Assembly (NCBI GenBank): GCA_963678705.1
Contig: CAVMBN010000158.1
Span: 496,001-560,000 of the forward strand
Reading direction: 5' to 3'
Origin: Panorpa germanica
Taxonomy: Eukaryota > Arthropoda > Insecta > Mecoptera > Panorpidae
Length of the DNA: 64,000 bases
The position numbers and the translations under genes are program-made. Shown piece by piece: positions 1 to 43,963 of this stretch; the first letter of the stretch is position 1; every line of letters starts with the position of its first letter. The notes beneath the pieces were generated by a model. The model was given only the letters and a program-made list of their open reading frames with translations. It was not told the origin of the DNA and ran no database searches.

Positions 1-1326
1 ACGTCCTTGTAAACCAATACGTCGGTCTTCCTTTTTGTATTAAGTCCAATCTGTCTTGCCAGAGCTTATGCATATATGCATTCATCTCTTTGGCAATATA
101 TTTGGTATCGTCTCCAGACTTTTATCCTACAGCCGCATTAACTTTAAATCCTCGAAATTTGTCGCATTAATTTTAAATCATCAAAATTTGATTTTTTCAG
201 TTCTAGCGTAATTTGTACTTGAGTAAGTGCATGAGTGATTTTTAAATCTAAAGGAATTGTCCCCAATATCACTTGCACCACTTCTGTAGATACAGTTCTG
301 CAACAACGCGTCATCGTCAATAACATAGTTCTTTGCATGGAAGATCTGGAAGATTGATCCTGTAATACCATGCCGAAGCACAATACACAACTATTAGCAT
401 AAATGCCCCCTTGTATAGTGTCGGCATAGTTGCCGAGTTTAAGCTTCATTCCGTCCTTGTGACACGCGCAAGGTGTGTTACAAGCTAATTATTCGTTGTT
501 ACTGTATTTGTTTCGTAGCTTTGTAGCTTCAAGAAACTACAGATTTTATATATAGCAGGTCGAGAACGGCTTTCTAGGGTTTCTGTACTATTTGCACCGA
601 TAAGGATCACATTATCGTTGGCAAAACATATGTCTACACAACCTTTCGAGTGAGAAACACAGTTCTCGTCGAATACCATGTTCCAGAGCTCAGGCCCCAT
701 TACAGATCGATGAGGACAACCTTTAGATAGTTGCCTTTTCATGGAACGGTTATCGGTTTGTAAAATAATGTTCGACAATGAAAATAGTTCTCCATAGCGC
801 AGTAGACGTACCTATAGGTTTTTGCCGCTCTAATTCTTTCAAGGTCACTTGGCCACCGGACATCAACAAAGACACACTGAATTTCTATAAATATCTCATA
901 TACATACTTGTACTTATGCCTACTTACATACCATTTGTTTGTTACCATTGAATGTTTATGAACGATCAATCACTATTTCCAAGAAAACCGCATATATTGT
1001 TCACTTAATCACTTATAACAATTAATACACTCTTATTATTATTTAAAACACGCATTTATATAAACTAATTCTTGTGTTTTAATATTATTTATAGTTAATG
1101 TTATTCGACTTACTTGATAGTGGGCGGCAACCTTTTGTCTTCCGTATATATGTAGTATTTATATGAGGTCTTCCTTATATATCTCTACAGATTTCTTGAA
1201 TTTTAAACCACTTGATGTTTTAGCACTAACACTAACCTAATTATTATCACTTTTTTTGTCTATCGCACTTATTAATGTCTAATAACAAACATCAAAGTTA
1301 CAAATTTGAGGTTATGTTTATAAGAC

Positions 1327-1338
1327 CGCGTGTACGCG
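1327..1338. repeat. CG-rich dyad in the satellite unit (copy 1 shown)
   Basis: CGCGTGTACGCG has five-base arms around GT. It stands out as CG-rich in AT-rich surroundings and is kept in almost all copies (copy 18 has TATGCG). Confidence 0.8.
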
Positions 1339-1435
1339 TAATGAAAAATTCGTTTTTAACACTGGTTTCCAACTGTAAAACTTTTGTAAAAACACTTTGT
1401 TTAGGGTAAATTAACACAAATTTAAAACAAACTTA

Positions 1436-1460
1436 AATACTTTTCGTTTGAAAAAGTATT
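1436..1460. repeat. Short hairpin in the satellite unit (copy 1 shown)
   Basis: AATACTTTT and AAAAGTATT are inverted arms around a short CGTTTGA-type loop. It recurs in nearly all copies; in copy 27 the right arm is damaged. Confidence 0.8.
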
Positions 1461-1653
1461 CATATAATTTATTTAATTTTTTTCCATAATTAATTTCTCA
1501 CTTTTAATCACTTTTTTCACCTAAAGTAGCAGGAGCCGATCACACACATAGTAGATAGGAACCACTTGTGTTGCAAAGCAATATTAACGTCCTTGTAAAC
1601 CAATATGTCGGTCTTCCTTTTTGTATTAAGTCCAATCTGTCTTGCCAGAGCTT

Positions 1654-1667
1654 ATGCATATATGCAT
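1654..1667. repeat. Perfect 14-bp palindrome in the satellite unit (copy 2 shown)
   Basis: ATGCATATATGCAT is its own reverse complement. It recurs in nearly every copy (first at 68-81). Copy 12 has lost it and copy 19 has one base changed (ATGCATAAATGCAT). Confidence 0.9.
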
Positions 1668-2511
1668 TCATCTCTTTGGCAATATATTTGGTATCGTCTC
1701 CAGACTTTTATCCTACAGCCGCATTAACTTTAAATCCTCGAAATTTGTCGCATTAATTTTAAATCATCAAAATTTGATTTTTTCAGTTCTAGCGTAATTT
1801 GTACTTGAGTAAGTGCATGAGTGATTTTTAAATCTAAAGGAATTGTCCCCAATATCACTTGCACCACTTCTGTAGATACAGTTCTGCAACAACGCGTCAT
1901 CGTCAATAACATAGTTCTTTGCATGGAAGATCTGGAAGATTGATCCTGTAATACCATGCCGAAGCACAATACACAACTATTAGCATAAATGCCCCCTTGT
2001 ATAGTGTCGGCATAGTTGCCAAAATTAAGCTTCATTCCGGCCTTGTGACACGCGCAAGGTGTGTTACAAACTTATTATTCGTTGTTACTGTATTTGTTTC
2101 GTAGCTTTGTAGCTTCAAGAAACTACAGATTTTATATATAGCAGGTCGAGAACGGCTTTCTAGGGTTTCTGTACTATTTGCACCGATAAGGATCACATTA
2201 TCGTTGGCAAAACATATGTCTACACAACATTTCGAGTGAGAAACACAGTTCTCGTCGAATACCATGTTCCAGAGCTCAGGCCCCATTACAGATCGCTGAG
2301 GACAACCTTTAGATAGTTGCCTTTTCATGGAACGGTAATCGGTTTGTAAAATAATGTTCGACAATGAAAATAGTTTTCCATAGCGCAGTAGACGTACCTA
2401 TAGCTTTTTGCCGCTCTAATTCTTTGAAGGTCACTTGGCCACCGGACATCAACAAAGACACACTGAATTTCTATAAATATCTCATATACATACTTGTACT
2501 TATGCCTACTT

Positions 2512-2520
2512 ACTTACCAT
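2512..2520 (-). other. Splice-donor-like site next to the RT relic (copy 2 shown)
   Basis: The minus strand reads ATG|GTAAGT, a near-perfect donor, just upstream of RT motif A. It is present in nearly all copies (copy 1 has GTATGT). No matching acceptor was identified, so splicing is only a possibility. Confidence 0.35.
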
Positions 2521-2556
2521 TTGTTTGTTACCATTGAATGTTCATGAACGATCAAT

Positions 2557-3173
2557 CACTATTTCTAAGAAAACCGCATATATTGTTCACTTAATCACTT
2601 ATAACAATTAATACACTCTTATTATTATTTAAAACACGCATTTATATAAACTAATTCTTGTGTTTTAATATTATTTATAGTTAATGTTATTCGACTTACT
2701 TGATAGTGGGCGGCAACCTTTTGTCTTCCGTATATATGTAGTGTTTATATGAGGTCTTCCTTTATATATCTCTACAGATTTCTTGAATTTTAAACCACTT
2801 GATGTTTTAGCACTAACACTAACCTAATTATTATCACTTTTTTTGTCTATCGCACTTATTAATGTCTTCTATCAAACATCAAAGTTACAAATTTGATGTT
2901 ATGTTTATAAGACCGCGTGTACGCGTAATGAAAAATTCGTTTTTAACACTGGTTTCCAACTGTCAAACTTTTGTAAAAACACTTTGTTTAGGGTAAATTA
3001 ACACAAATTTAAAACAAACTTAAATACTTTTCGTTTGAAAAAGTATTCATATAATTTATTTAATTTTTTTCCATAATTAATTTCTCACTTTTAATCACTT
3101 TTTTCACCTAAAGTAGCAGGAGCTGATCACACACATAGTAGATAGGAACCACTTGTGTTGCAAAGCAATATTA
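2557..3173. other. Non-RT part of the satellite unit (copy 2 shown)
   Basis: About 615 bp of AT-rich DNA with no coding signal in any frame. On the minus strand, which is the sense strand of the RT relic, it lies upstream of RT motif A. It contains a TATA-like TTTATATAAA (2641-2650), a CGCGTGTACGCG dyad, an AATACTTTT hairpin, and ends next to a splice-donor-like ATG|GTAAGT. It could be the 5' untranslated or promoter region of the ancestral element, or unrelated DNA joined before amplification. I cannot tell which from sequence alone. Confidence 0.5.
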
Positions 3174-4759
3174 ACGTCCTTGTAAACCAATACGTCGGTC
3201 TTCCTTTTTGTATTAAGTCCAATCTGTCTTGCCAGAGCTTATGCATATATGCATTGATCTCTTTAGCAATATATTTGGTATCGTCTCCAGACTTTTATCC
3301 TACAGCCGCATTCACTTTAAATCCTCGAAATTTGTCGCATTAATTTTAAATCATCAAAATTTGATTTTTTCAGTTCTAGCGTAATTTGTACTTGAGTAAG
3401 TGCATGAGTGATTTTTAAATCTAAAGGAATTGTCCCCAATATCACTTGCACCACTTCTGTAGATACAGTTCTGCAACAACGCGTCATCGTCAATAACATA
3501 GTTCTTTGCATGGAAGATCTGGAAGATTGATCCTGTAATACCATGCCGAAGCACAATACACAACTATTAGCATAAATGCCCCCTTGTATAGTGTCGGCAT
3601 AGTTGCCGAGTTTAAGCTTCATTCCGTCCTTGTGACACGCGCAAGGTGTGTTACAAGTTTATCAATTGTTGTTACTGTATTTGTTTCGTAGCTTTGTAGC
3701 TTCAAGAAACTACAGATTTTATATATAGCAGGTCGAGAACGGCTTTCTAGGGTTTCTGTACTATTTGCACCGATAAGGATCACATTATCGTTGGCAAAAC
3801 ATATGTCTACACAACATTTCGAGTGAGAAACACAGTTCTCGTCGAATACCATGTTCCAGAGCTCAGGCCCCATTACAGATCGCTGAGGACAACCTTTAGA
3901 TAGTTGCCTTTTCATGGAACGGTAATCGGTTTGTAAAATAATGTTCGACAATGAAAATAGTTCTCCATAGCGCAGTAGACGTACCTATAGGTTTTTGCCG
4001 CTCTAATTCTTTGAAGGTCACTTGGCCACCGGACATCAACAAAGACACACTGAATTTCTATAAATATCTCATATACATACTTGTACTTATGCCTACTTAC
4101 TTACCATTTGTTTGTTACCATTGAATGTTCATGAACGATCAATCACTATTTCTAAGAAAACCGCATATATTGTTCACTTAATCACTTATAACAATTAATA
4201 CACTCTTATTATTATTTAAAACACGCATTTATATAAACTAATTCTTGTGTTTTAATATTATTTATAGTTAATGTTATTCGACTTACTTGATAGTGGGCGG
4301 CAACCTTTTGTCTTCCGTATATATGTAGTGTTTATATGAGGTCTTCCTTATATATCTCTACAGATTTCTTGAATTTTAAACCACTTGATGTTTTAGCACT
4401 AACACTAACCTAATTATTATCACTTTTTTTGTCTATCGCACTTATTAATGTCTTCTATCAAACATCAAAGTTACAAATTTGATGTTATGTTTATAAGACC
4501 GCGTGTACGCGTAATGAAAAATTCGTTTTTAACACTGGTTTCCAACTGTCAAACTTTTGTAAAAACACTTTGTTTAGGGTAAATTAACACAAATTTAAAA
4601 CAAACTTAAATACTTTTCGTTTGAAAAAGTATTCATATAATTTATTTAATTTTTTTCCATAATTAATTTCTCACTTTTAATCACTTTTTTCACCTAAAGT
4701 AGCAGGAGCCGATCACACACATAGTAGATAGGAACCACTTGTGTTGCAAAGCAATATTA
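3174..4759. repeat. Satellite copy 3, type I (RT relic 3174-4143, minus)
   Basis: 1586 bp. Type I markers are TTIDKL in the relic (plus strand GTTTATCAATTGTTG) and TGATCTCTTTAGC after the palindrome. Its second half carries GTTCTCCAT and TAGGTTTTT, unlike copies 6-8. Confidence 0.95.
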
Positions 4760-6345
4760 ACGTCCTTGTAAACCAATACGTCGGTCTTCCTTTTTGTATT
4801 AAGTCCAATCTGTCTTGCCAGAGCTTATGCATATATGCATTCATCTCTTTGGCAATATATTTGGTATCGTCTCCAGACTTTTATCCTACAGCCGCATTAA
4901 CTTTAAATCCTCGAAATTTGTCGCATTAATTTTAAATCATAAAAATTTGATTTTTTCAGTTCTAGCGTAATTTGTACTTGAGTAAGTGCATGAGTGATTT
5001 TTAAATCTAAAGGTTTTGTTCTCAATATCACTTGCACCTCTTCTGTAGATACAGTTCTGCAACAACGCGTCATCGTCAATAACATAGTTCTTTGCATGGA
5101 AGATCTGGAAGATTGATCCTGTAATACCATGCCGAAGCACAATACACAACTATTAGCATAAATGCCCCCTTGTATAGTGTCGGCATAGTTGCCGAGTTTA
5201 AGCTTCATTCCGTCCTTGTGACACGCGCAAGGTGTGTTACAAGCTTATTCTTCGTTGTTACTGTGTTTGTTTCGTAGCTTTGTAGCTTCAAGAAATTACA
5301 GATTTTATATATAGCAGGTCGAGAACGGCTTTCTAGGGTTTCTGTACTATTTGCACCGATAAGGATCACATTATCGTTGGCAAAACATATGTCTACACAA
5401 CCTTTCGAGTGAGAAACACAGTTCTCGTCGAATACCATGTTCCAGAGCTCAGGCCCCATTACAGATCGCTGAGGACAACCTTTAGATAGTTGCCTTTTCA
5501 TGGAACGGTAATCGGTTTGTAAAATAATGTTCGACAATGAAAATAGTTCTCCATAGCGCAGTAGACGTACCTATAGGTTTTTGCCGCTCTAATTCTTTGA
5601 AGGTCACTTGGCCACCGGACATCAACAAAGACACACTGAATTTCTATAAATATCTCATATACATACTTGTACTTATGCCTACTTACTTACCATTTGTTTG
5701 TTACCATTGAATGTTCATGAACGATCAATCACTATTTCCAAGAAAACCGCATATATTGTTCACTTAATCACTTATAGCAATTAATACACTCTTATTATTA
5801 TTTAAAACACGCATTTATATAAACTAATTCTTGTGTTTTAATATTATTTATAGTTAATGTTATTCGACTTACTTGATAGTGGGCGGCAACCTTTTGTCTT
5901 CCGTATATATGTAGTATTTATATGAGGTCTTCCTTATATATCTCTACAGATTTCTTGAATTTTAAACCACTTGATGTTTTAGCACTAACACTAACCTAAT
6001 TATTATCACTTTTTTTGTCTATCGCACTTATTAATGTCTAATAACAAACATCAAAGTTACAAATTTGAGGTTATGTTTATAAGACCGCGTGTACGCGTAA
6101 TGAAAAATTCGTTTTTAACACTGGTTTCCAACTGTAAAACTTTTGTAAAAACACTTTGTTTAGGGTAAATTAACACAAATTTAAAACAAACTTAAATACT
6201 TTTCGTTTGAAAAAGTATTCATATAATTTATTTAATTTTTTTCCATAATTAATTTCTCACTTTTAATCACTTTTTTCACCTAAAGTAGCAGGAGCCGATC
6301 ACACACATAGTAGATAGGAACCACTTGTGTTGCAAAGCAATATTA
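4760..6345. repeat. Satellite copy 4, type E (RT relic 4760-5729, minus)
   Basis: 1586 bp. Type E markers are RRGASDIENKT in one relic frame (plus strand GGTTTTGTTCTCAATATC) and TTCTTCGTTG. These are shared with copy 9, five units away. Confidence 0.95.
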
Positions 6346-7932
6346 ACGTCCTTGTAAACCAATACGTCGGTCTTCCTTTTTGTATTAAGTCCAATCTGTC
6401 TTGCCAGAGCTTATGCATATATGCATTCATCTCTTTGGCAATATATTTGGTATCGTCTCCAGACTTTTATCCTACAGCCGCATTAACTTTAAATCCTCGA
6501 AATTTGTCGCATTAATTTTAAATCATCAAAATTTGATTTTTTCAGTTCTAGCGTAATTTGTACTTGAGTAAGTGCATGAGTGATTTTTAAATCTAAAGGA
6601 ATTGTCCCCAATATCACTTGCACCACTTCTGTAGATACAGTTCTGCAACAACGCGTCATCGTCAATAACATAGTTCTTTGCATGGAAGATCTGGAAGATT
6701 GATCCTGTAATACCATGCCGAAGCACAATACACAACTATTAGCATAAATGCCCCCTTGTATAGTGTCGGCATAGTTGCCAAAATTAAGCTTCATTCCGGC
6801 CTTGTGACACGCGCAAGGTGTGTTACAAACTTATTATTCGTTGTTACTGTATTTGTTTCGTAGCTTTGTAGCTTCAAGAAACTACAGATTTTATATATAG
6901 GAGGTCGAGAACGGCTTTCTAGGGTTTCTGTACTATTTGCACCGATAAGGATCACATTATCGTTGGCAAAACATATGTCTACACAACATTTCGAGTGAGA
7001 AACACAGTTCTCGTCGAATACCATGTTCCAGAGCTCAGGCCCCATTACAGATCGCTGAGGACAACCTTTAGATAGTTGCCTTTTCATGGAACGGTAATCG
7101 GTTTGTAAAATAATGTTCGACAATGAAAATAGTTTTCCATAGCGCAGTAGACGTACCTATAGCTTTTTGCCGCTCTAATTCTTTGAAGGTCACTTGGCCA
7201 CCGGACATCAACAAAGACACACTGAATTTCTATAAATATCTCATATACATACTTGTACTTATGCCTACTTACTTACCATTTGTTTGTTACCATTGAATGT
7301 TCATGAACGATCAATCACTATTTCTAAGAAAACCGCATATATTGTTCACTTAATCACTTATAACAATTAATACACTCTTATTATTATTTAAAACACGCAT
7401 TTATATAAACTAATTCTTGTGTTTTAATATTATTTATAGTTAATGTTATTCGACTTACTTGATAGTGGGCGGCAACCTTTTGTCTTCCGTATATATGTAG
7501 TGTTTATATGAGGTCTTCCTTTATATATCTCTACAGATTTCTTGAATTTTAAACCACTTGATGTTTTAGCACTAACACTAACCTAATTATTATCACTTTT
7601 TTTGTCTATCGCACTTATTAATGTCTTCTATCAAACATCAAAGTTACAAATTTGATGTTATGTTTATAAGACCGCGTGTACGCGTAATGAAAAATTCGTT
7701 TTTAACACTGGTTTCCAACTGTCAAACTTTTGTAAAAACACTTTGTTTAGGGTAAATTAACACAAATTTAAAACAAACTTAAATACTTTTCGTTTGAAAA
7801 AGTATTCATATAATTTATTTAATTTTTTTCCATAATTAATTTCTCACTTTTAATCACTTTTTTCACCTAAAGTAGCAGGAGCTGATCACACACATAGTAG
7901 ATAGGAACCACTTGTGTTGCAAAGCAATATTA
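6346..7932. repeat. Satellite copy 5, type N (RT relic 6346-7315, minus)
   Basis: 1587 bp. By eye nearly identical to copy 2, three units to the left, including MKLNF, TRPE and the CCTTTATATA insertion. It has a private change (GGAGGTCG near 6900). Confidence 0.95.
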
Positions 7933-9519
7933 ACGTCCTTGTAAACCAATACGTCGGTCTTCCTTTTTGTATTAAGTCCAATCTGTCTTGCCAGAGCTTA
8001 TGCATATATGCATTGATCTCTTTAGCAATATATTTGGTATCGTCTCCAGACTTTTATCCTACAGCCGCATTAACTTTAAATCCTCGAAATTTGTCGCATT
8101 AATTTTAAATCATCAAAATTTGATTTTTTCAGTTCTAGCGTAATTTGTACTTGAGTAAGTGCATGAGTGATTTTTAAATCTAAAGGAATTGTCCCCAATA
8201 TCACTTGCACCACTTCTGTAGATACAGTTCTGCAACAACGCGTCATCGTCAATAACATAGTTCTTTGCATGGAAGATCTGGAAGATTGATCCTGTAATAC
8301 CATGCCGAAGCACAATACACAACTATTAGCATAAATGCCCCCTTGTATAGTGTCGGCATAGTTGCCGAGTTTAAGCTTCATTCCGTCCTTGTGACACGCG
8401 CAAGGTGTGTTACAAGTTTATCAATTGTTGTTACTGTATTTGTTTCGTAGCTTTGTAGCTTCAAGAAACTACAGATTTTATATATAGCAGGTCGAGAACG
8501 GCTTTCTAGGGTTTCTGTACTATTTGCACCGATAAGGATCACATTATCGTTGGCAAAACATATGTCTACACAACATTTCGAGTGAGAAACACAGTTCTCG
8601 TCGAATACCATGTTCCAGAGCTCAGGCCCCATTACAGATCGCTGAGGACAACCTTTAGATAGTTGCCTTTTCATGGAACGGTAATCGGTTTGTAAAATAA
8701 TGTTCGACAATGAAAATAGTTTTCCATAGCGCAGTAGACGTACCTATAGCTTTTTGCCGCTCTAATTCTTTGAAGGTCACTTGGCCACCGGACATCAACA
8801 AAGACACACTGAATTTCTATAAATATCTCATATACATACTTGTACTTATGCCTACTTACTTACCATTTGTTTGTTACCATTGAATGTTCATGAACGATCA
8901 ATCACTATTTCTAAGAAAACCGCATATATTGTTCACTTAATCACTTATAACAATTAATACACTCTTATTATTATTTAAAACACGCATTTATATAAACTAA
9001 TTCTTGTGTTTTAATATTATTTATAGTTAATGTTATTCGACTTACTTGATAGTGGGCGGCAACCTTTTGTCTTCCGTATATATGTAGTGTTTATATGAGG
9101 TCTTCCTTTATATATCTCTACAGATTTCTTGAATTTTAAACCACTTGATGTTTTAGCACTAACACTAACCTAATTATTATCACTTTTTTTGTCTATCGCA
9201 CTTATTAATGTCTTCTATCAAACATCAAAGTTACAAATTTGATGTTATGTTTATAAGACCGCGTGTACGCGTAATGAAAAATTCGTTTTTAACACTGGTT
9301 TCCAACTGTCAAACTTTTGTAAAAACACTTTGTTTAGGGTAAATTAACACAAATTTAAAACAAACTTAAATACTTTTCGTTTGAAAAAGTATTCATATAA
9401 TTTATTTAATTTTTTTCCATAATTAATTTCTCACTTTTAATCACTTTTTTCACCTAAAGTAGCAGGAGCTGATCACACACATAGTAGATAGGAACCACTT
9501 GTGTTGCAAAGCAATATTA
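7933..9519. repeat. Satellite copy 6, type I (RT relic 7933-8902, minus)
   Basis: 1587 bp. The first half matches copy 3 (TTIDKL, TGATCTCTTTAGC); the second half matches copies 2 and 5 (GTTTTCCAT, TAGCTTTTT, CCTTTATATA). This looks like a recombinant of the two types. Confidence 0.95.
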
Positions 9520-11106
9520 ACGTCCTTGTAAACCAATACGTCGGTCTTCCTTTTTGTATTAAGTCCAATCTGTCTTGCCAGAGCTTATGCATATATGCAT
9601 TGATCTCTTTAGCAATATATTTGGTATCGTCTCCAGACTTTTATCCTACAGCCGCATTAACTTTAAATCCTCGAAATTTGTCGCATTAATTTTAAATCAT
9701 CAAAATTTGATTTTTTCAGTTCTAGCGTAATTTGTACTTGAGTAAGTGCATGAGTGATTTTTAAATCTAAAGGAATTGTCCCCAATATCACTTGCACCAC
9801 TTCTGTAGATACAGTTCTGCAACAACGCGTCATCGTCAATAACATAGTTCTTTGCATGGAAGATCTGGAAGATTGATCCTGTAATACCATGCCGAAGCAC
9901 AATACACAACTATTAGCATAAATGCCCCCTTGTATAGTGTCGGCATAGTTGCCGAGTTTAAGCTTCATTCCGTCCTTGTGACACGCGCAAGGTGTGTTAC
10001 AAGTTTATCAATTGTTGTTACTGTATTTGTTTCGTAGCTTTGTAGCTTCAAGAAACTACAGATTTTATATATAGCAGGTCGAGAACGGCTTTCTAGGGTT
10101 TCTGTACTATTTGCACCGATAAGGATCACATTATCGTTGGCAAAACATATGTCTACACAACATTTCGAGTGAGAAACACAGTTCTCGTCGAATACCATGT
10201 TCCAGAGCTCAGGCCCCATTACAGATCGCTGAGGACAACCTTTAGATAGTTGCCTTTTCATGGAACGGTAATCGGTTTGTAAAATAATGTTCGACAATGA
10301 AAATAGTTTTCCATAGCGCAGTAGACGTACCTATAGCTTTTTGCCGCTCTAATTCTTTGAAGGTCACTTGGCCACCGGACATCAACAAAGACACACTGAA
10401 TTTCTATAAATATCTCATATACATACTTGTACTTATGCCTACTTACTTACCATTTGTTTGTTACCATTGAATGTTCATGAACGATCAATCACTATTTCTA
10501 AGAAAACCGCATATATTGTTCACTTAATCACTTATAACAATTAATACACTCTTATTATTATTTAAAACACGCATTTATATAAACTAATTCTTGTGTTTTA
10601 ATATTATTTATAGTTAATGTTATTCGACTTACTTGATAGTGGGCGGCAACCTTTTGTCTTCCGTATATATGTAGTGTTTATATGAGGTCTTCCTTTATAT
10701 ATCTCTACAGATTTCTTGAATTTTAAACCACTTGATGTTTTAGCACTAACACTAACCTAATTATTATCACTTTTTTTGTCTATCGCACTTATTAATGTCT
10801 TCTATCAAACATCAAAGTTACAAATTTGATGTTATGTTTATAAGACCGCGTGTACGCGTAATGAAAAATTCGTTTTTAACACTGGTTTCCAACTGTCAAA
10901 CTTTTGTAAAAACACTTTGTTTAGGGTAAATTAACACAAATTTAAAACAAACTTAAATACTTTTCGTTTGAAAAAGTATTCATATAATTTATTTAATTTT
11001 TTTCCATAATTAATTTCTCACTTTTAATCACTTTTTTCACCTAAAGTAGCAGGAGCTGATCACACACATAGTAGATAGGAACCACTTGTGTTGCAAAGCA
11101 ATATTA
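9520..11106. repeat. Satellite copy 7, type I (RT relic 9520-10489, minus)
   Basis: 1587 bp. I saw no difference from copies 6 and 8 in the segments compared by eye, suggesting very recent duplication. Confidence 0.95.
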
Positions 11107-30967: not shown

Positions 30968-31622
30968 GACGATGACTGGTGAGTGGTCAGATGAGAGATC
31001 CAGGCTTGACTCAGCTTTGAGGTAATTAGAGGAAATTCCTTTTACTACGCAAAAATCGATTAGATCAGGAGTTTTTGCCATATCCGTTGGCCAGTACGTC
31101 GGTTCACCACTTGAAAGGGTTGTAAAACCATGTGTTTTAACGCATTTATACAGTTCATTTCCCTTAGGATTTGTAAGTCTTGATCCCCATTCGGGGTGCT
31201 TTGCGTTAAAATCCCCTCCTGATATGAAACGTGGACCTAGTGTATTGTAATAAGAGTAGAACTGTTCAGACTTTATGTTGTGTTTCGGTGGACAGTATAC
31301 TGCGGAGATAGTTAAATGTCTGTTCAGCTCGCTTATTACAATACTTGTTGCTTGCAGGAAGTCTTGGCGATATTCATTAATTTCATGGTGTTGTATAGAA
31401 GACTTAATGATGATAGCTGTTCCTCCATGCGCTTTATTGTCCGGATGTTTAGTGTCATATATTCTATAGTTTGGAACCTTCATATAGCTTTTAGTGGTAA
31501 AGTGCGTTTCAGAAACTAGCAAAATGTCAATGTTTTGGTTTAGAAGAAAGGAAATTACTTCTTGGCTGTGTTTAGCAAGACCATTGGCGTTCCAGAGTGC
31601 GATTCTTAGGGACGTGAAGAGA
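30968..31622 (-). pseudogene. Jockey-clade ORF2, endonuclease part only
   Basis: The reading frame follows gag in the -1 frame with a short overlap. It starts around LRIALWNANGL (EN motif with the conserved Asn) and continues through LLVSETH (catalytic Glu), GGTAIIIK, GGDFNAKHPEWGSR (GDFNA motif), TPDLIDF and SSDHSPVIV (SDH motif). It is an apurinic-type endonuclease that nicks target DNA. The frame then runs into satellite sequence at the junction near 30967, so the RT domain is missing. No ATG was seen at the start of the conserved region; translation in the parent element may have depended on gag. Confidence 0.85.
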
Positions 31623-32793
31623 TTGGCAAGCGTGAGACTAAGGTTGTGATGAGATTGAGCATTGTACTCATTTGTTCCACCAGACTTTTCATCATAACTT
31701 TTAGTTCGGCGATGTCATTTGACTGCACGTTCGATTCACTATGATTTTGTTGCACTTGTTCAGATTGGGTTTTCACTGTTTGGTTACTAACCACCTGTGC
31801 AAAGGAGGTACCTGACTGGACTTGGCGTGATGGTAATGGGGCAACAGTTTCTGAAAATCTGGGTCTAAGTGGAGGAAATTTGCGCTCTACGATTTGCCTA
31901 TAAACATCGCATCCTTTGTAGTTGGCTGTGTGATTGTTATTGCAGAGAACACATTTAACTTTTTCGTTTAATTTGTTCTTCCAGTCACACTGGCTGGTAT
32001 GGTGATCGCCTGCGCATTTAACACATCTTGCGTTTCGGTAACAGTAGGTTTTGGTGTGACCATATCTTTGGCATTTTGTGCATTGCGGTACCTCCCTTTT
32101 GAATTTTGGTGGTTCAATTTTAATTTTACTATTTAGTAGGAATTCCAGGTCAAAGATGTCTTTGTTGTTAGGCTTTTGTTCTAATTCTACAAAGAACAAT
32201 GGTAAAGGAATTTTAGTGGTCCTTTGTTTGATGTTGCTTATTCGAATGACCTTGTGCCCATAGTTTTCTAATTCTTTCTTTATGTCCGATTCATCCGTGG
32301 AGTGATGTAGGTGTCTTACCACCACTTTATAGCTTTTGTCCATTTTTTGTTGGTATGTGTGGAACTCGGTGTTCCTATCCTTTAGGAGTGTCACTATTCT
32401 TTGGTATGTTTCAATATCCTGGAGCTGCAGCTTTACTTGCGATCCTCCGATCAACTTACTTTGATAGGCGTTTTTGGCGTGCGTGTCTAGCAGGCTAGTG
32501 AGAGGTTTGATGTCGTTGACTCCATATATAAACAGTGGTGGTGGTTTGTGTTCTGCGACTTTAACTTCTTCTGATGCATTAGCATCGGAGAGTTCGTCGA
32601 ACCTATTCGCTAATGGTATTGGGTTTAACCAGTAATCCCCTAGTGTTTTTTGCCTCACATTCCTTGGTGCATCTGGACTGACTCTTTTTTTCTTCCTATT
32701 GTTTGAAACGTTTTGCCAAACGTCCCGCGGATTTTTTATCTCTTCATGCTTTTCTTGGATGGTTCCCATCGTATCTTGTATAGCATCCGCCAT
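31606..32793 (-). CDS. Jockey-clade ORF1 (gag-like nucleic-acid-binding protein)
   Basis: Open frame of 395 residues from an ATG to TAA. It has a basic N-terminal segment (residues ~33-50), an RRM-like region (about 155-230), then three zinc knuckles at about 238-251 (CTKCQRYGHTKTYC), 257-269 (CVKCAGDHHTSQC) and 281-295 (CVLCNNNHTANYKGC). A low-complexity Gln/Ser C-terminus follows. This order is that of gag proteins of Jockey-clade elements, which bind element RNA and direct it to the nucleus. The frame is intact, but the element around it is incomplete, so it is a fossil unless transcribed from outside. Confidence 0.85.
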   Translation of the reverse strand: MADAIQDTMGTIQEKHEEIKNPRDVWQNVSNNRKKKRVSPDAPRNVRQKTLGDYWLNPIPLANRFDELSDANASEEVKVAEHKPPPLFIYGVNDIKPLTSLLDTHAKNAYQSKLIGGSQVKLQLQDIETYQRIVTLLKDRNTEFHTYQQKMDKSYKVVVRHLHHSTDESDIKKELENYGHKVIRISNIKQRTTKIPLPLFFVELEQKPNNKDIFDLEFLLNSKIKIEPPKFKREVPQCTKCQRYGHTKTYCYRNARCVKCAGDHHTSQCDWKNKLNEKVKCVLCNNNHTANYKGCDVYRQIVERKFPPLRPRFSETVAPLPSRQVQSGTSFAQVVSNQTVKTQSEQVQQNHSESNVQSNDIAELKVMMKSLVEQMSTMLNLITTLVSRLPISSRP

Positions 32794-32803
32794 ACTTTCT
32801 AGT

Positions 32804-34168
32804 GAGCAAGTGCATGAGTGATTTTTAAATCTAAAGAATTGTCCCTAATATCACTTGCACCACTTCTGTAGATACAGTTCTGCAACAACGCGTCATCGTC
32901 AATAACATAGTTCTTTGCATGGAAGATCTGCAAGATTGATCCTGTAATACCATGCCGAAGCACAATACACAACTATTAGCATAAATGCCCGTTTGTATAG
33001 TGTCGGCATAGTTGCCGAGTTTAAGCTTCATTCCGTCCTTGTGACACGCGCAAGGTGTGTTACAAGTTTATCATTCGTTGTTACTGTATTTGTTTCGTAG
33101 CTTTGTAGCTTCAAGAAACTACAGATTTTATATATAGCAGGTCGAGAACGGCTTTCTAGGGTTTCTGTACTATTTGCACCGATAAGGATCACATTATCGT
33201 TGGCAAAACATATGTCTACACAACCTTTCGAGTGAGAAACACAGTTCTCGTCGAATACCATGTTCCAGAGCTCAGGCCCCATTACAGATCGCTGAGGACA
33301 ACCTTTAGATAGTTGCCTTTTCATGGAACGGTAATCGGTTTGTAAAATAATGTTCGACAATGAAAATAGTTCTCCATAGCGCAGTAGACGTACCTATAGG
33401 TTTTTGCCGGTCTAATTCTTTGAAGGTCACTTGGCCACCGGACATCAACAAAGGCACACTGAATTTCTATAAATATCTCATATACATACTTGTACTTATG
33501 CCTACTTACTTACCATTTGTTTGTTACCATTGAATGTTCATGAACGATCAATCACTATTTCCAAGAAAACCGCATATATTGTTCACTTAATCACTTATAA
33601 CAATTAATACACTCTCATTATTATTTAAAACACGCATTTATATAAACTAATTCTTGTGTTTTAATATTATTTATAGTTAATGTTATTCGACCTACTTGAT
33701 AGTAAGCGGCAACCTTTTGTCTTCCGTATATTTGTAGTGTTTATATGAGGTTTTCCTTATATATCTCTACAGATTTCTTGAATTTTAAACCACTTGATGT
33801 TTTAGCACTAACTCTAACCTAATTATTATCACTTTTTTTGTCTATCGCACTTATTAATGTCTTATATCAAACATCAAAGTTACAAATTTGAGGTTATGTT
33901 TATAAGACCGCGTGTACGCGTAATGAAAAATTCGTTTTTAACACTGGTTTCCAACTGTCAAACTTTTGTAAAAACACTTTGTTTAGGGTAAATTAACACA
34001 AATTTAAAACAAACTTAAATACTTTTCGTTTAAAAAAGTATTCATATAATTTATTTAATTTTTTTCCATAATTAATTTCTCACTTTTAATCACTTTTTTC
34101 ACCTAAAGTAGCAGGAGCCGATCACACACATAGTAGATAGGAACCACTTGTGTTGCAAAGCAATATTA
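32804..34168. repeat. Satellite copy 21, starts at unit position ~221
   Basis: After the Jockey fragment the unit resumes at GAGCAAGTGCATGAG instead of continuing from position 934, so about 870 bp of array (or that plus whole units) is missing. It carries CTAAAGAATTG, as do copies 19 and 20. Confidence 0.95.
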
Positions 34169-35754
34169 ACGTCCTTGTAAACCAATACGTAGGTCTTCTT
34201 TTTTGTATTAAGTCCCATCTGTCTTGCCAGAGCTTATGCATATATGCATTCATCTCTTTGGCAATATATTTGGTATCGTCTCCAGACTTTTATCCTACAG
34301 CCGCATTAACTTTAAATCCTCGAAATTTGTCGCATTAACTTTAAATCATCAAAATTTGATTTTTTCAGTTCTAGCGTAATTTGTACTTGAGTAAGTGCAT
34401 GAGTGATTTTTAAATCTAAAGGAATTGTCCCCAATATCACTTGCACCACTTCTGTAGATACAGTTCTGCAACAACGCGTCATCAACAATAACATAGTTCT
34501 TTGCATGGAAGATCTGGAAGATTGATCCTGTAATACCATGCCGAAGCACAATACACAACTATTAGCATAAATGCCCCCTTGTATAGTGTCGGCATAGTTG
34601 CCGAGTTTAAGCTTCACTTCGTCTTTGTGACACGCGCAAGGTGTATTACAAGTTTATCATTCGTTGTTACTGTATTTGTTTCGTAGCTTTGTAGCTTCAA
34701 GAAACTACAGATTTTATATATAGCAGGTCGAGAACGGCTTTCTAGGGTTTCTGTACTATTTGCACCGATAAGGATCACATTATCGTTGGCAAAACATATG
34801 TCTACACAACCTTTCGAGTGAGAAACACAGTTCTCGTCGAATACCATGTTCCAGAGCTCAGGCCCTATTACAAATCGCTGAGGACAACCTTTAGATAGTT
34901 GCCTTTTCATGGAACGGTAATCGGTTTGTAAAATAATGTTCGACAATGAAAATAGTTCTCCATAGCGCAGTAGACGTACCTATAGGTTTTTGCCGGTCTA
35001 ATTCTTTGAAGGTCACTTGGCCACCGGGCATCAACAAAGGCACACTGAATTTCTATAAATATCTCATATACATACTTGTACTTATGCCTACTTACTTACC
35101 ATTTGTTTGTTACCATTGAATGTTCATGAACGATCAATCACTATTTCCAAGAAAACCGCATATATTGTTCACTTAATCACTTATAACAATTAATACACTC
35201 TCATTATTATTTAAAACACGCATTTATATAAACTAATTCTTGTGTTTTAATATTATTTATAGTTAATGTTATTCGACTTACTCGATAGTGGGCGGCAACC
35301 TTTTGTCTTCCGTATATTTGTAGTGTTTATATGAGGTTTTCCTTATATATCTCTACAGATTTCTTAAATTTTAAACCACTTGATGTTTTAGCACTAACTC
35401 TTACCTAATTATTATTACTTTTTTTGTCTATCGCACTTATTAATGTCTTATATCAAACATCAAAGTTACAAATTTGAGGTTATGTTTATAAGACCGCGTG
35501 TACGCGTAATGAAAAATTCGTTTTTAACACTGGTTTCCAACTGTCAAACTTTTGTAAAAACACTTTGTTTAGGGTAAATTAACACAAATTTAAAACAAAC
35601 TTAAATACTTTTCGTTTGAAAAAGTATTCATAAAATTTATTTAATTTTTTTCCATAATTAATTTCTCACTTTTATTCACTTTTTTCACCTAAAGTAGCAG
35701 AAGCCGATCACACACATCGTAGATAGGAACCACTTGTGTTGCAAAGCAATATTA
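34169..35754. repeat. Satellite copy 22 (RT relic 34169-35138, minus)
   Basis: 1586 bp. CATCAACAATAAC variant near 34485, shared with copy 24 two units away. Confidence 0.95.
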
Positions 35755-37329
35755 ACGTCCTTGTAAACCAATACGTAGGTGTTCCTTTTTGTATTAAGTC
35801 CCATCTGTCTTGCCAGAGCTTATGCATATATGCATTCATCTCTTTGGCAATATATTTGGTATCGTCTCCAGACTTTTATCCTACAGCCGCATTAACTTTA
35901 AATCCTCGAAATTTGTCGCATTAATTTTAAATCATCAAAATTTGATTTTTTCAGTTCTAGCGTAATTTGTACTTGAGTAAGTGCATGAGTGATTTTTAAA
36001 TCTAAAGGAATTGTCCCTAATATCACTTGCACCATTTCTGTAGATACAGTTCTGCAACAACGCGTCATCGTCAATAACATAGTTCTTTGCATGGAAGATC
36101 TGGAAGATTGATCCTGTAATACCATGCCGAAGCACAATACACAACTATTAGCATAAATGCCTCCTTGTATAGTGTCGGCATAGTTGCCGAGTTTAAGCTT
36201 CATTCCGTCTTTGTGACACGCGCAAGGTGTATTACAAGTTTATCATTTGTTTTACTGTATTTGTTTCGTAGCTTTGTAGCTTCAAGAAACTACAGATTTT
36301 ATATATAGCAGGTCAAGAACGGCTTTCTAGGGTTTCTGTACTATTTGCACCGATAAGGATCACATTATCGTTGGCAAAACATATGTCTACACAACCTTTC
36401 GAGTGAGAAACACAGTTCTCGTCGAATACCATGTTCCAGAGCTCAGGCCCCATTACAGATCGCTGAGGACAACCTTTAGATAGTTGCCTTTTCATGGAAC
36501 GGTAATCGGTTTGTAAAATAATGTTCGACAATGAAAATAGTTCTCCATAGCGCAGTAGACGTACCTATAGGTTTATGCCGGTCTAATTCTTTGAAGGTCA
36601 CTTGACCACCGGACATCAACAAAGGCACACTGAATTTCTATAAATATCTCATATACATACTTGTACTTATGCCTACTTACTAACCATTTGTTTGTTACCA
36701 TTGAATGTTCATGAACGATCAATCACTATTTCCAAGAAAACCGCATATATTGTTCACCTAATCACTTATAACAATTAATACACTCTCATTATTATTTAAA
36801 ACACGCATTTATATAAACTAATTCTTGTGTTTTTATATTATTTATAGTAAATGTTATTCGACTTACTTGATAGTGGGCGGCAACCTTTTGTCTTCCGTAT
36901 ATTTGTAGTGTTTATATGAGGTCTTCCTTATATATCTCTACAGATTTCTTGAATTTTAAACCACTTGATGTTTTAGCACTAACACTAACCTAATTATTAT
37001 CACTTTTTTTGTCAATCGCACTTATTAATGTCTTATATCAAACATCAAAGTTACAAATTTGAGGTTATGTTTATAAGACCGCGTGTACGCGTAATGAAAA
37101 ATTCGTTTTTAACACTGGTTTCCAACTGTCAAACTTTTGTAAAAACACTTTGTTTAGGGTAAATTAACACAAATTTAAAACAAACTTAAATACTTTTCGT
37201 TTGAAAAAGTATTCATATAATTTATTTAATTTTTTTCCATAATTAATTTCTCACTTTTTTCACCTAAAGTAGCAGGAGCCGATCACACACATAGTAGATA
37301 GGAACCACTTGTGTTGCAAAGCAATATTA
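35755..37329. repeat. Satellite copy 23, 10-bp deletion (RT relic 35755-36724, minus)
   Basis: 1575 bp. It shares GTAGGTGTTCC, TCATTTGTTTTACTG, TTCACCTAATC and TATAGTAAATG with copy 25, and has the same 10-bp loss as copy 13 (near 37253). Confidence 0.95.
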
Positions 37330-38914
37330 ACGTCCTTGTAAACCAATACGTAGGTCTTCCTTTTTGTATTAAGTCCCATCTGTCTTGCCAGAGCTTATGC
37401 ATATATGCATTCATCTCTTTGGCAATATATTTGGTATCGTCTCCAGACTTTTATCCTACAGCCGCATTAACTTTAAATCCTCGAAATTTGTCGCATTAAT
37501 TTTAAATCATCAAAATTTGATTTTTTCAGTTCTAGCGTAATTTGTACTTGAGTAAGTGCATGAGTGATTTTTAAATCTAAAGGAATTGTCCCAAAATATC
37601 ACTTGCACCACTTCTGTAGATACAGTTCTGCAACAACGCGTCATCAACAATAACATAGTTCTTTGCATGGAAGATCTGGAAGATTGATCCTGTAATACCA
37701 TGCCGAAGCACAATACACAATTATTAGCATAAATGCCTCTTTGTATAGTGTCGGCATAGTTGCCGAGTTTAAGCTTCATTCCGTCCTTGTGACACGCGCA
37801 AGGTGTGTTACAAGTTTATCATTCGTTGTTACTGTATTTGTTTCGTGGCTTTGTAGCTTCAAGAAACTACAGATTTTATATATAGCAGGTCGAGAACGGC
37901 TTTCTAGGGTTTCTGTTCTATTTGCACCGATAAGGATCACATTATCGTTGGCAAAACATATGTCTACACAACCTTTCGAGTGAGAAACACAGTTCTCGTA
38001 GAATACCATGTTCCAGAGCTCAGGCCCCATTACAGATCGCTGAGGACAACCTTTAGATAGTTGCGTTTTCATGGAACGGTAATCGGTTTGTAAAATAATG
38101 TTCGACAATGAAAATAGTTCTCCATAGCGCAGTAGACGTACCTATAGGTTTTTGCCGGTCTAATTCTTTGAAGGTCACTTGGCCACCGGACATCAACAAA
38201 GGCACACTGAATTTCTATAAATATCTCATATACATACTTGTACTTATGCCTACTTACTTACCATTTGTTTGTTACCATTGAATGTTCATGAACGATCAAT
38301 CACTATTTCCAAGAAAACCGCATATATTGTTCACTTAATCACTTATAACAATTAATACACTCTCATTATTATTTAAAACACGCATTTATATAAACTAATT
38401 CTTGTGTTTTAATATTATTTATAGTTAATGTTATTCGACTTACTTGATAGTGGGCGGCAACCTTTTGTCTTCCGTATACTTGTAGTGTTTATATGAGGTC
38501 TTCCTTATATATCTCTACAGATTTCTTGAATTTTAAACCACTTGATGTTTTAGCACTAACACTAACCTAATTATTATCACTTTTTTTTCTATCGCACTTA
38601 TTATATCTTATATCAAACATCAAAGTTACAAATTTGAGGTTATGGTTATAAGACCGCGTGTACGCGTAATGAAAAATTCGTTTTTAACACTATTTTCCAA
38701 CTGTCAAAATTTTGTAAAAACACTTTGTTTAGGGTAAAATAACACAAATTTAAAACAAACTTAAATACTTTTCGTTTGAAAAAGTATTCATATAATTTAT
38801 TTAATTTTTTTCCATAATTAATTTCTCACTTTTAATCACTTTTTTCACCTAAAGTAGCAGGAGCCGATCACACACATAGTAGATAGGAACCACTTGTGTT
38901 GCAAAGTAATATTA
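37330..38914. repeat. Satellite copy 24 (RT relic 37330-38300, minus)
   Basis: 1585 bp. Pairs with copy 22 (CATCAACAATAAC). It has one extra A in CCCAAAATATC near 37593. Confidence 0.95.
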
Positions 38915-40500
38915 ACGTCCTTGTAAACCAATACGTAGGTGTTCCTTTTTGTATTAAGTCCCATCTGTCTTGCCAGAGCTTATGCATATATGCATTCATC
39001 TCTTTGGCAATATATTTGGTATCGTCTCCAGACTTTTATCCTACAGCCGCATTAACTTTAAATCCTCGAAATTTGTCGCATTAATTTTAAATCATCAAAA
39101 TTTGATTTTTTCAGTTCTAGCGTAATTTGTACTTGAGTAAGTACATGAGTGATTTTCAAATCTAAAGGAATTGTCCCTAATATCACTTGCACCACTTCTG
39201 TAGATACAGTTCTGCAACAACGCGTCATCGTCAATAACATAGTTCTTTGCATGGAAGATCTGGAAGATTGATCCTGTAATACCATGCCGAAGCACAATAC
39301 ACAACTATTAGCATAAATGATCCCTTGTATAGTGTCGGCATAGATGCCGAGTTTAAGCTTCATTCCGTCTTTGTGACACGCGCAAGGTGTATTACAAGTT
39401 TATCATTTGTTTTACTGTATTTGTTTCGTAGCTTTGTAGCTTCAAGAAACTACAGATTTTATATATAGCAGGTCGAGAACGGCTTTCTAGGGTTTCTGTA
39501 CTATTTGCACCGATAAGGATCACATTATCGTTGGCAAAACATATGTCTACACAACCTTTCGAGTGAGAAACACAGTTCTCGTCGAATACCATGTTCCAGA
39601 GCTCATGCCCCATTACAGATCGCTGAGGACAACCTTTAGATAGTTGCCTTTTCATGGAACGGTAATCGGTTTGTAAAATAATGTTCGACAATGAAAATAG
39701 TTCTCCATAGCGCAGTAGACGTTCCTATAGGTTTTTGCCGGTCTAATTCTTTGAAGGTCACTTGACCACCGGACATCAACAAAGGCACACTGAATTTCTA
39801 TAAATATCTCATATACATACTTGTACTTATGCCTACTTACTTACCATTTGTTTGTTACCATTGAATGTTCATGAACGATCAATCACTATTTCCAAGAAAA
39901 CCGCATATATTGTTCACCTAATCACTTATAACAATTAATACACTCTCATTATTATTTAAAACACGCATTTATATAAACTAATTCTTGTGTTTTTATATTA
40001 TTTATAGTAAATGTTATTCGACTTACTTGATAGTGGGCGGCAACCTTTTGTCTTCCGTATATTTGTAGTGTTTATATGAGGTCTTCCTTATATATCTCTA
40101 CAGATTTCTTGAATTTTAAACCACTTGATGTTTTAGCACTAACACTAACCTAATTATTATCACTTTTTTTGTCTATCGCACTTATTAATGTCTTATATCA
40201 AACATCAAAGTTACAAATTTGAGGTTATGTTTATAAGACCGCGTGTACGCGTAATGAAAAATTCGTTTTTAACACTGGTTTCCAACTGTCAAACTTTTGT
40301 AAAAACACTTTGTTTAGGGTAAATTAACAAAAATTTAAAACAAACTTAAATACTTTTCGTTTGAAAAAGTATTCATATAATTTATTTAATTTTTTTTAAA
40401 TAATTAATTTCTCACTTTTAATCACTTTTTTCACCTAAAGTAGCAGGAGCCGATCACACACATAGTAGATAGGAACCACTTGTGTTGCAAAGCAATATTA
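38915..40500. repeat. Satellite copy 25 (RT relic 38915-39884, minus)
   Basis: 1586 bp. Pairs with copy 23 by four shared variants. Confidence 0.95.
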
Positions 40501-42086
40501 ACGTCCTTGTAAACCAATACGTAGGTCTTCCTTTTTGTATTAAGTCCCATCTGTCTTGCCAGAGCTTATGCATATATGCATTCATCTCTTTGGCAATATA
40601 TTTGGTATCGTCTCCAGACTTTTATCCTACAGCCGCATTAACTTTAAATCCTCGAAATTTGTCGCATTAATTTTAAATCATCAAAATTTGATTTTTTCAG
40701 TTCTAGCGTAATTTGTACTTGAGTAAGTGCATGAGTGATTTTTAAATCTAAAGGAATTGTCCTCAATATCACTTGCACCACTTCTGTAGATACAGTTCTG
40801 CAACAACGCGTCATCGTCAATAACATAGTTCTTTGCATAGAAGAACTGGAAGATTGATCCTGTAATACCATGCCGAAGCACAATACACAACTATTAGCAT
40901 AAATGCCCCCTTGTATAGTGTCGGCATAGTTGCCGAGTTTAAGCTTCATTCCGTCTTTGTGACACGCGCAAGGTGTATTACAAGTTTATCATTCGTTGTT
41001 ACTGTATTTGTTTCGTAGCTTTGTAGCTTCAAGAAACTACAGATTTTATATATAGCAGGTCGAGAACGGCTTTTTAGGGTTTCTGTACTATTTGCACCGA
41101 TAAGGATCACATTATCGTTGGCAAAACATATGTCTACACAACCTTTCGAGTGAGAAACACAGTTCTCGTAGAATACCATGTTCCAGAGCTCAGGCCCCAT
41201 TACAGATCGCTGAGGACAACCTTTAGATAGTTGCCTTTTCATGGAACGGTAATCGGTTTGTAAAATAATGTTCGACAATGAAAATAGTTCTCCATAGCGC
41301 AGTAGACGTACCTATAGGTTTTTGCCGGTCTAATTCTTTGAAGGTCACTTGGCCACCAGACATCAACAAAGGCACACTGAATTTCTATAAATATCTCATA
41401 TACATACTTGTACTTATGCCTACTTACTTACCATTTGTTTGTTACCATTGAATGTTCATGAACGATCAATCACTATTTCCAAGAAAACCGCATATATTGT
41501 TCACTTAATCACTTATAACAATTAATACACTCTCATTATTATTTAAAACACGCATTTATATAAACTAATTCTTGTGTTTTTTTATTATTTATAGTTAATG
41601 TTATTCGACTTACTTGATAGTGGGCGGCAACCTTTTGTCTTCCGTATACTTGTAGTGTTTATATGAGGTCTTCCTTATATATCTCTACAGATTTCTTGAA
41701 TTTTAAACCACTTGATGTTTTAGCACTGACACTAACCTAATTATTATCACTTTTTTTGTCTATCGCACTTATTAATGTCTTATATCAAACATCAAAGTTA
41801 CAAATTTGAGGTTATGTTTATAAGACCGCGTGTACGCGTAATGAAAAATTCGTTTTTAACACTGGTTTCCAACTGTCAAACTTTTGTAAAAACACTTTGT
41901 TTAGGGTAAATTAACACAAATTTAAAACAAACTTAAATACTTTTCGTTTGAAAAAGTATTCATATAATTTATTTAATTTTTTTCCATAATTAATTTCTCA
42001 CTTTTAATAACTTTTTTCACCTAAAGTAGCAGGAGCCGATCACACACATAGTAGATAGGAACCACATGTGTTGCAAAGAAATATTA
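40501..42086. repeat. Satellite copy 26 (RT relic 40501-41470, minus)
   Basis: 1586 bp. Private variants include GCATAGAAGAAC and TGTTTTTTTATT. Confidence 0.95.
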
Positions 42087-43671
42087 ACGTCCTTGTAAAC
42101 CAATACGTAGGTCTTCCTTTTTGTATTAAGTCCCATCTGTCTTGCCAGAACTTATGCATATATGCATTCATCTCTTTGGCAATATATTTGGTATCGTCTC
42201 CAGACTTTTATCCTACAGCCGCATTAACTTTAAATCCTCGAAATTTGTCGCATTAATTTTAAATCATCAAAATTTGATTTTTTCAGTTCTAGCGTAATTT
42301 GTACTTGAGTAAGTGCATGAGTGATTTTTAAATCTAAAGGAATTGTCCCCAATATCACTTGCACCACTTCTGTAGTTACAGTTCTGCAACAACGCGTCAT
42401 CGTCAATAACATAGTTCTTTGCATGGAAGATCTGGAAGATTAATCCTGTAATACCATGCCGAAGCACAAAACACAACTATTAGCATAAATGCCCCCTTGT
42501 ATAGTGTCGGCATAGTTGCCAAATTTAAGCTTCATTCCGTCCTTGTGACACGCGCAAGGTGTGTTACAAGTTTATCACTCGTTGTTACTGTATTTGTTTC
42601 GTAGCTTTGTAGCTTCAAGAAACTTCAGATTTTATATATAGCAGGTCAAGAACGGCTTTCTAGGGTTTCTGTACTATTTGCACCGATAAGGATCACATTA
42701 TCGTTGGCAAAACATATGTCTACACAACCTTTCGAGTGAGAAACACAGTTCTCGTCGAATACCATGTTCCAGAGCTCAGGCCCCATTACAGATCGCTGAG
42801 GACAACCTTTAGATAGTTGCCTTTTCATGGAACGGTAATCGGTTTGTAAAATAATGTTCGACAATGAAAATAGTTTTCCATAGCGCAGTAGACGTACCTA
42901 TAGGGTTTTGCCGGTCTAATTCTTTGAAGGTCACTTGGCCACCGGACGTCAACAAAGGCACACTGAATTTCTATAAATATCTCATATACATACTTGTACT
43001 TATGCCTACTTACTTACCATTTGTTTGTTACCATTGAATGTTCATGAACGATCAATCACTATTTCCAAGAAAACCGCATATATTGTTCACTTAATCACTT
43101 ATAACAATTAATACACTCTCATTATTATTTAAAACACGCATTTATATAAACTAATTCTTCTGTTTTAATATTATTTATAGTTAATGTTATTCGACTTACT
43201 TGATAGTGGGCGGCAACCTTTTGTCTTCCGTATATTTGTAGTGTTTATATGAGGTCTTCCTTATATATCTCTACAGATTTCTTGAACTTTAAACCACTTG
43301 ATGTTTTAGCACTAACACTAAACTAATAATTATCACTTTTTTTGTCTATCGCACTTATTAATGTCTTATATCAAACATTAAAGTTACAAATTTGAGGTTA
43401 TGTTTATAAGACCGCGTGTACGCGTAATGAAAAATTCGTTTTTAACACTGGTTTCCAACTGTCAAACTTTTGTAAAAACACTTTGTTTAGGGTAAATTAA
43501 CACAAATACAAAACAAACTTAAATACTTTTCGTTTGAAAAAGTATAATTTAATTTATTTAATTTTTTTCCATAATTAATTTCTCACTTTTAATAACTTTT
43601 TTCACCTAAAGTAGCAGTAGCCGATCACACACATAGTAGATAGGAACCACTTGTGTTGCAAAGCAATATTA
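42087..43671. repeat. Satellite copy 27 (RT relic 42087-43056, minus)
   Basis: 1585 bp. This last full copy has many private changes (for example GTAGTTACAG, CAAAACACAAC, AGTATAATTTAATT), as is usual for the edge of a satellite. Confidence 0.95.
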
Positions 43672-43757
43672 ACGTCCTTGTAAACCAATACGTAGGTCTT
43701 CCTTTTTGTATTAAGTCCCATCTGTCTTGCCAGAGCTTATGCATATATGCATTCATC
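43672..43757. repeat. Satellite copy 28, first 86 bp only
   Basis: Normal unit sequence through the ATGCATATATGCAT palindrome and TCATC. The I-clade element then starts. The array does not reappear to the right. Confidence 0.95.
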
Positions 43758-43791: not shown

Positions 43792-43963
43792 TTTACAATA
43801 AACAAAACAATAAAATTTTTAGTGATCTTTTTTTGCAAATTATAATATTTTTTTCTTTTTTTTGTTGATTTATTTGTATTTAAATTATAATTTTATTATT
43901 ATTAAGTAATATTACTAAAAAGTGAAGTAACTTTTATTTAATTATCACTGGTTAATTAACAAT

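Follow-up and report, generated by a model that had tools for sequence, protein, structure and literature searches.

The window is a stretch of 64,000 nucleotides (C174:496001-560000) within the 464-Mb, 249-contig assembly of Panorpa germanica. Positions 1..43763 are occupied by a satellite array, here called family A, whose consensus unit of 1586 bp contains a reverse transcriptase (RT) relic with its coding sense on the minus strand. With the first unit as query, BLAST resolves 25 head-to-tail units that are 1493-1587 bp long, besides a broken one and a 92-bp tail; among the 16-mers of the window, a spacing of 1585-1587 is dominant. Most units (22 of 25) measure 1585-1587 bp; the other three are 1493, 1575 and 1576 bp long, the shortest being a unit with a 93-bp deletion detected by BLAST (17452..18944, minus strand). 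An earlier note on this DNA had described 28 head-to-tail copies of about 1586 bp ending at 43757. The array itself stands, but that count includes the two halves of the broken unit and the tail, and the actual end lies at 43763. The note was right that the array exceeds the window: outside it, 8.5 kb upstream of its start, satellite DNA is present at C174:487474, and such DNA is absent at C174:450001 and C174:570001, where 200-base probes were used.

Several features distinguish individual parts of the array. The broken unit consists of two halves (30035-30967 and 32803-34168) with foreign DNA between them, a LINE piece (30968..32802, minus strand) that stands in place of unit positions 936-1586 and 1-219. 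This piece carries a PRE_C2HC gag-like ORF and an endonuclease, and a search within it found no RT. The last unit (43672..43763, minus strand), delimited by BLAST, is truncated to 92 bp, differs from the consensus by 4.4% and forms the right edge of the array; another LINE starts beside it. A 29-bp tandem duplication within the RT thumb relic (134..190, minus strand) is carried by 26 copies along the array. Unit comparison further reveals a block duplication at 1587..14279, in which the units starting at 1587, 3174 and 4760 are repeated as 6346, 7933/9520/11107 and 12694, the units at 7933 and 9520 being exactly identical. Such repeated blocks are expected from unequal exchange or conversion. 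Divergence from the consensus rises toward the right edge, from 0.6-1.0% in the first 11 units to 1.3-1.8% in the last six, and 145 of the 214 variant alleles among the window units are singletons.

The RT-derived part of the first unit was delimited by blastn and by alignment with L070, an R1-related locus of the same genome. On the minus strand it opens with motif A (at 914), takes in the B and C boxes and reaches the thumb (1..914), and it continues from unit position 1 into 1560..1586 (minus strand), where R1 similarity ends at 1560. RT-derived DNA thus amounts to 941 of 1586 bp (914 to 1 and then 1586 to 1560 of the unit), with internal losses. The earlier note had proposed about 970 bp of RT joined to about 615 bp of other DNA; the fusion is upheld, and the sizes become 941 bp and 645 bp. 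KGCPQ, FAND and RTVSTE sequences, which we take to be motifs of R1-type RTs, occur on the minus strand of the units, spread over different frames. Pfam RVT_1 was found in one of three unit frames scanned, at E=0.13 only, and in neither of the two frames of another scan; when frames of single units were compared with Pfam and PDB, no RT match was significant. Since RVT_1 appears only at E=0.13, motif order alone is insufficient for R1 identity, and it is the relative in the same genome that decides.

This relative was obtained by searching the assembly with a hand-composed R1-clade RT query, which gave 136 scored matches of 18369 candidates, from which 12 loci were fetched. L070 overlaps a second locus, L071, and the two represent one element. 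Over unit positions 522-914 the unit is 81.2% identical to L070 in blastn, and 73.4% over 1560-1586 plus 1-487. The tblastn match has an E value of about 1e-75, compared with 1e-26 to 4e-12 for the other ten fetched R1 loci (both strands, all 12). L070 carries endonuclease and RT domains. Its endonuclease, partial because it is cut at the locus start, finds its best matches in the solved structures of TRAS1 (5.6e-20) and R1Bm (2.6e-13); for comparison, of two further LINE endonucleases encoded in the window, one matches TRAS1 at 7.5e-5 and the other has no match at E 0.001. TRAS and R1 both belong to the R1 clade. A pattern scan of viral contigs gave 34 pattern matches and no relative. To judge from the DNA match and the endonuclease matches, the parent of the unit was an R1-clade LINE near the L070 lineage. 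The hunt for a parent elsewhere in the genome, advised in the earlier note, led to a close R1-clade relative and bears out the R1-clade RT origin proposed there.

The relic is also dead, as had been supposed. No intact ORF, endonuclease or ORF1 was recognised in the unit, and its frameshifts and stops show that it is not a working R1-clade LINE. Over 410 aligned sites, changes at codon positions 1/2/3 number 13/11/39 on the branch comprising L070 and the stem, 11/10/7 on the branch to family A and 5/7/10 on that to a sister family, B. These changes on the three branches indicate that the fragment was coding before the A/B split and was free of coding constraint after it.

Family B is a 1103-bp satellite that fills the first 6 kb of contig C10 and shows 80.5-80.8% identity to unit positions 622-1586 of family A (five complete copies). 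Both junctions between RT and non-RT DNA are common to the two families. Family A has lost an RT stretch after the C box, partly kept in B, and B has lost the thumb, which is kept in A. The common junctions and the different deletions argue that both descend from one longer fused unit; derivation of A from B, or of B from A, by simple deletion was rejected, each retaining RT segments lost in the other. The presence of both junctions in both families also makes the fusion older than the A/B split and shows that it was amplified as a unit, in agreement with the earlier proposal that an RT fragment joined to other DNA had become a satellite. The spacing of matches on C7 suggests a third unit length near 1175 bp.

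For the non-RT part of the unit (915..1559, minus strand, 645 bp), neither the sequence read around L070 nor Rfam offered a match. It was unmatched in 5.3 kb of L070 plus L071, in 3.7 kb further upstream at the 5' side of L070 (loci L082 and L083), and in about 360 nt downstream of each of four R1 3' ends. The 5' UTR of L070 was considered as its source, and no match was found in L082 or L083; C8:2584501-2585866 (about 1.4 kb) lies outside the stretches read. Rfam gave no match up to E=1 in window positions 1-3200 and none at gathering score in the window, and no rRNA was found in or beside the array, consistent with the earlier observation that none is visible.

The breakpoint between the two parts holds a possible trace of how the unit arose. 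R1 similarity ends exactly before CCTATCTACT, the sequence reading ...AAGTGGTT|CCTATCTACT in family A and ...AAGTGGTA|CCTATCTACT in family B. These 10 nt (1550..1559, minus strand), the same in both families, are the last 10 of 14 nt that come after the R1 3' end in four genomic copies. The 14-nt sequence TGTCCCTATCTACT is present at the R1 3' side in four of the 12 fetched R1 loci, with different DNA after each; in one of them (L079) a further R1 piece comes next, which shares 94.8% identity over 362 nt with the second element of L071. We take it to be the R1 target site in 28S rDNA. An exact 33-mer of the 28S site has no match in the assembly, and a 27-mer made of the site and what we assume to be its 28S continuation occurs at 30 places with at most two mismatches (17 exact, 11 with one, 2 with two). 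Five of these places, all on C8, sit 600-700 nt downstream of R1 matches when compared by hand. In L083, 2.2 kb from the 5' side of L070, the 10-mer CCTATCTACT is absent. The idea that it is mere coding sequence of the R1 C-terminus was discarded, as past the breakpoint shuffled sequences align with L070 just as well (p 0.53 for family A and 0.72 for family B). The chance of ten matching bases at one fixed place is about one in a million, a figure to be read with the facts that A and B are not independent and that the match was found by eye. The target-site relic is a hint, at the level of sequence, that the unit may have been born in a tandem R1 array; since the 3.7 kb covered on that side of L070 do not resemble the 645-bp part, a tandem-R1 origin rests on 10 bp.

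Tandem R1 copies in Drosophila are joined by the 14-bp site, and the site of an existing copy seems to serve as the target for new insertions (PMC2718515). It could be asked whether the present array is simply a run of tandem R1 insertions of the usual rDNA kind, viewed without its context, given such comparable Drosophila arrays (PMC2718515) and genomic R1 copies that are followed by the target-site sequence, one of them, L079, running straight into another R1 piece. The units, however, are 1.6-kb fusions with no ORF1, endonuclease or recognisable 3' UTR, and the window has no rRNA match, so that this explanation is hardly credible. A different possibility is that the unit is a non-autonomous R1 derivative, similar to a short internally deleted element (SIDE), that was retrotransposed and only afterwards accumulated in head-to-tail order. 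In outline, the fusion of a 5' segment with an RT segment resembles a SIDE (PMC3414825), and the target-site relic at the unit junction would fit such an element. However, the R1 similarity of the unit ends inside the C-terminal coding region of the RT, leaving no recognised R1 3' UTR, whereas a SIDE retains its 3' end and R1 proteins appear to recognise their own 3' UTR (PMC3414825). The copies, moreover, cluster in blocks, with one stray among the matches listed. Retrotransposition of the unit itself is for these reasons quite improbable.

The array of the window is one of many. A 40-mer common to families A and B has 3836 exact copies in the assembly, and 79 of some 146 A units from the window and the C1 samples contain it. 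If this rate holds elsewhere, the satellite is estimated at about 7000 units, or 8-11 Mb, 2% of the assembly. Seven large contigs are positive (C1, C3, C6, C7, C10, C11 and C15), mostly with one zone each, the longest of about 4 Mb; C2, C4, C5 and other large contigs are outside the positives among the matches listed and cannot be counted as negative. The longest zone, at 10.86-14.82 Mb of the 30.6-Mb contig C1, was defined by 40-mer matches and samples and contains switches of orientation. Dense matches start at 10.86 Mb with a spacing of about 1104 bp; between 12.95 and 14.82 Mb satellite was present in all 19 fetched 10-kb samples, in two of them beside other DNA, and a 10-kb sample at 14.90 Mb had none. 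Family B lies at the left edge of this block and family A in its sampled bulk, with an enclave of B at C1:13.18-13.23 Mb. The other zones are at 17.7-18.3 Mb on C3, 18.38-18.88 Mb on C6 (with a second small cluster at 22.58 Mb), 5.01-5.88 Mb on C7, 0-0.3 Mb on C10, 0.60-1.00 Mb on C11 and 1.35-1.48 Mb on C15. A lone match at C1:8.81 Mb is the only stray copy among the matches listed. Zones are not continuous, probes being negative at C1:12.80, C7:5.80 and C11:0.85 Mb. A first set of probes matched in 3 of 20 cases (12 of the 20 were contig starts, of which one, C10, matched); in a second set 15 of 20 matched A or B and five neither. The satellite is also present, with different variants, on at least 38 further contigs numbered C27 or higher. 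The view taken in the earlier note needs widening: instead of a single local event, the array represents one block among many across contigs. Long, homogenised head-to-tail arrays at many loci and in high copy number, all seen here, are the hallmarks of satellite DNA.

The many copies on contigs other than the large ones might suggest an assembly artefact produced by collapsed or repeated reads. Against this, each copy has distinct variants, and there are insertions, deletions and edges. The occurrence of the satellite on seven large contigs and at least 38 further contigs, with different variants, makes an artefact extremely improbable.

Comparison of 120 full units (89 from C1 and 24 from the window) gave a mean distance of 2.3% between contigs and 2.6% between C1 loci. 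Together with the block duplications and the more divergent right edge, this similarity of the between-contig distance to that within C1 leads us to infer exchange among units. Exchange between chromosomes does not appear to be free, since for 109 of the 120 units the nearest neighbour lies on the same contig, although C1 is the source of 89 of them. Exact copies of a consensus 160-mer from the window array number nine, on seven contigs including its own, which points to local homogenisation as well.

Fusion, loss of coding constraint, amplification and block duplication are thus recorded in the DNA itself. We consider it likely that the unit is what fusion and internal deletion have left of an R1-clade LINE, and that the satellite built from it is homogenised by exchange and constitutes passive centromeric or pericentromeric DNA. 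Its ancestor would have been a tandem R1 array joined through duplication of the R1 target site; loss of internal and 3' parts from the array, or from the fusion, would have produced a short unit, which may then have spread between chromosomes. Unequal exchange and conversion would make and homogenise the arrays. The satellite would be kept by recombination and not by any encoded protein, as a main part of pericentromeric or centromeric heterochromatin.

Judged by contig position only, a centromeric placement is plausible. The satellite might even be the functional centromere satellite, bound by CenH3. Such a role would agree with the block at the centre of C1, some 4 Mb long, which changes orientation internally and has B on its left margin and A in its sampled bulk, and also with the occurrence of mostly one zone per large contig where the satellite is found. 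The B enclave inside the A block speaks against it, as does the fact that several large contigs are not among the positives in the matches listed. From these sequence patterns we regard CenH3 binding as a real possibility, short of an even chance. A fuller history can be imagined, in which an rDNA-specific retrotransposon inserted tandemly into its own target-site duplication to form the first array, and the shortened unit then moved out of the rDNA and took the place of older DNA as the main centromeric satellite of the genome; we hold this to be rather unlikely.

The reading as a homogenised LINE relic has parallels. LINE-derived satellites include the chicken Cen satDNAs (CR1-C) and chicken HinfI (CR1), as well as Phodopus PROsat and seal Pvc20 (L1 ORF2) and Drosophila 18HT (HeT-A/TART) (PMC9659126, PMC6947457). 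Like the present satellite they are built from part of a LINE, some from RT coding sequence, and some are centromeric; the Panorpa case differs in its R1-clade source and in its two families with one common fusion to other DNA, the relevant entries of these reviews holding no R1 case. The unit resembles tandem R1 arrays in its head-to-tail R1 sequence and in the last 10 bp of the 14-bp 28S target site at its junction, but in those arrays the R1 copies are mostly or all in rDNA (PMC2718515), whereas here a 1.6-kb fused relic has no rRNA beside it. D. simulans has, outside rDNA, a tandem array in which the 5' end of R1 is joined to the 3' end of R2 (PMC2718515). This is likewise a fused piece of an R element, in tandem and outside rDNA, but other parts are fused, and the relevant section of that paper does not mention megabase blocks for D. 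simulans. The R2 and R2/R1 SIDEs are also internally deleted R-element derivatives; they keep their 3' end and move (PMC3414825), whereas the satellite unit has no recognisable R1 3' end. No R1-derived satellite was named in the titles or abstract openings found in the open-licence literature, a result that does not prove that none has been described.

That satellites arise from LINEs, and that jumping genes turn into DNA of chromosome structure, was known already; what the present case adds is an R1-derived satellite with an unusually readable anatomy. The birth of a satellite is seldom observable because its source is usually lost. In Panorpa germanica the order of events can be read, since one genome contains the breakpoints, a near relative of the source and two sister families that differ in their deletions. 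If the blocks prove to be centromeric, a retrotransposon of the rDNA type would be a source of centromere DNA, and the R1 habit of inserting beside itself would have offered a ready route to the first tandem copies.

The satellite array is interrupted at window 30968-32802 by a piece of a LINE on the minus strand, in which a gag-like PRE_C2HC ORF is accompanied by an endonuclease; a reverse transcriptase was looked for in this piece and none was found. Satellite sequence directly flanks the LINE piece on both sides, and 870 bp of the satellite unit are absent at this position, so a deletion accompanied or followed the insertion.

The right edge of the array is adjoined by a second LINE (window ~43764-49364, plus strand, start approximate), with CCHC-like, endonuclease, RT and RNase H frames. 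On the 3' side of this LINE lies a Copia-type element (window 49365-53518, plus strand), whose 1240-aa open frame is flanked by direct repeats (49365-49571 and 53224-53518). A short frame on the same strand (window 54222-54659) gives a weak RVT_1 match (E=4.2e-4, under Pfam's cut-off) and is perhaps another RT fragment. The inverted repeat at window 57882-58248, with 92-nt arms that are 89% complementary and spaced 183 nt apart, may represent a small inverted-repeat element.

Elsewhere in the assembly, the block of the 1586-bp satellite (family A) on contig C1 includes an enclave of the sister satellite, family B, at 13.175-13.230 Mb. Contig C2 opens with a 46-bp tandem repeat, which fills its first 200 bases (C2:1-200, L029) and is not of the TTAGG type.

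Upstream of L070, the R1-clade element on contig C8 that, among the 12 R1 loci compared, is closest to the RT part of the satellite, a long frame with internal repeats is preceded by subrepeats of about 300 bp (L082, L083). R1-clade matches are densely clustered at 0.14-3.65 Mb of this contig (L070-L077, L080, L081), and the R1 target-site sequence follows some of them. This cluster may correspond to tandem R1 or to a former rDNA region.
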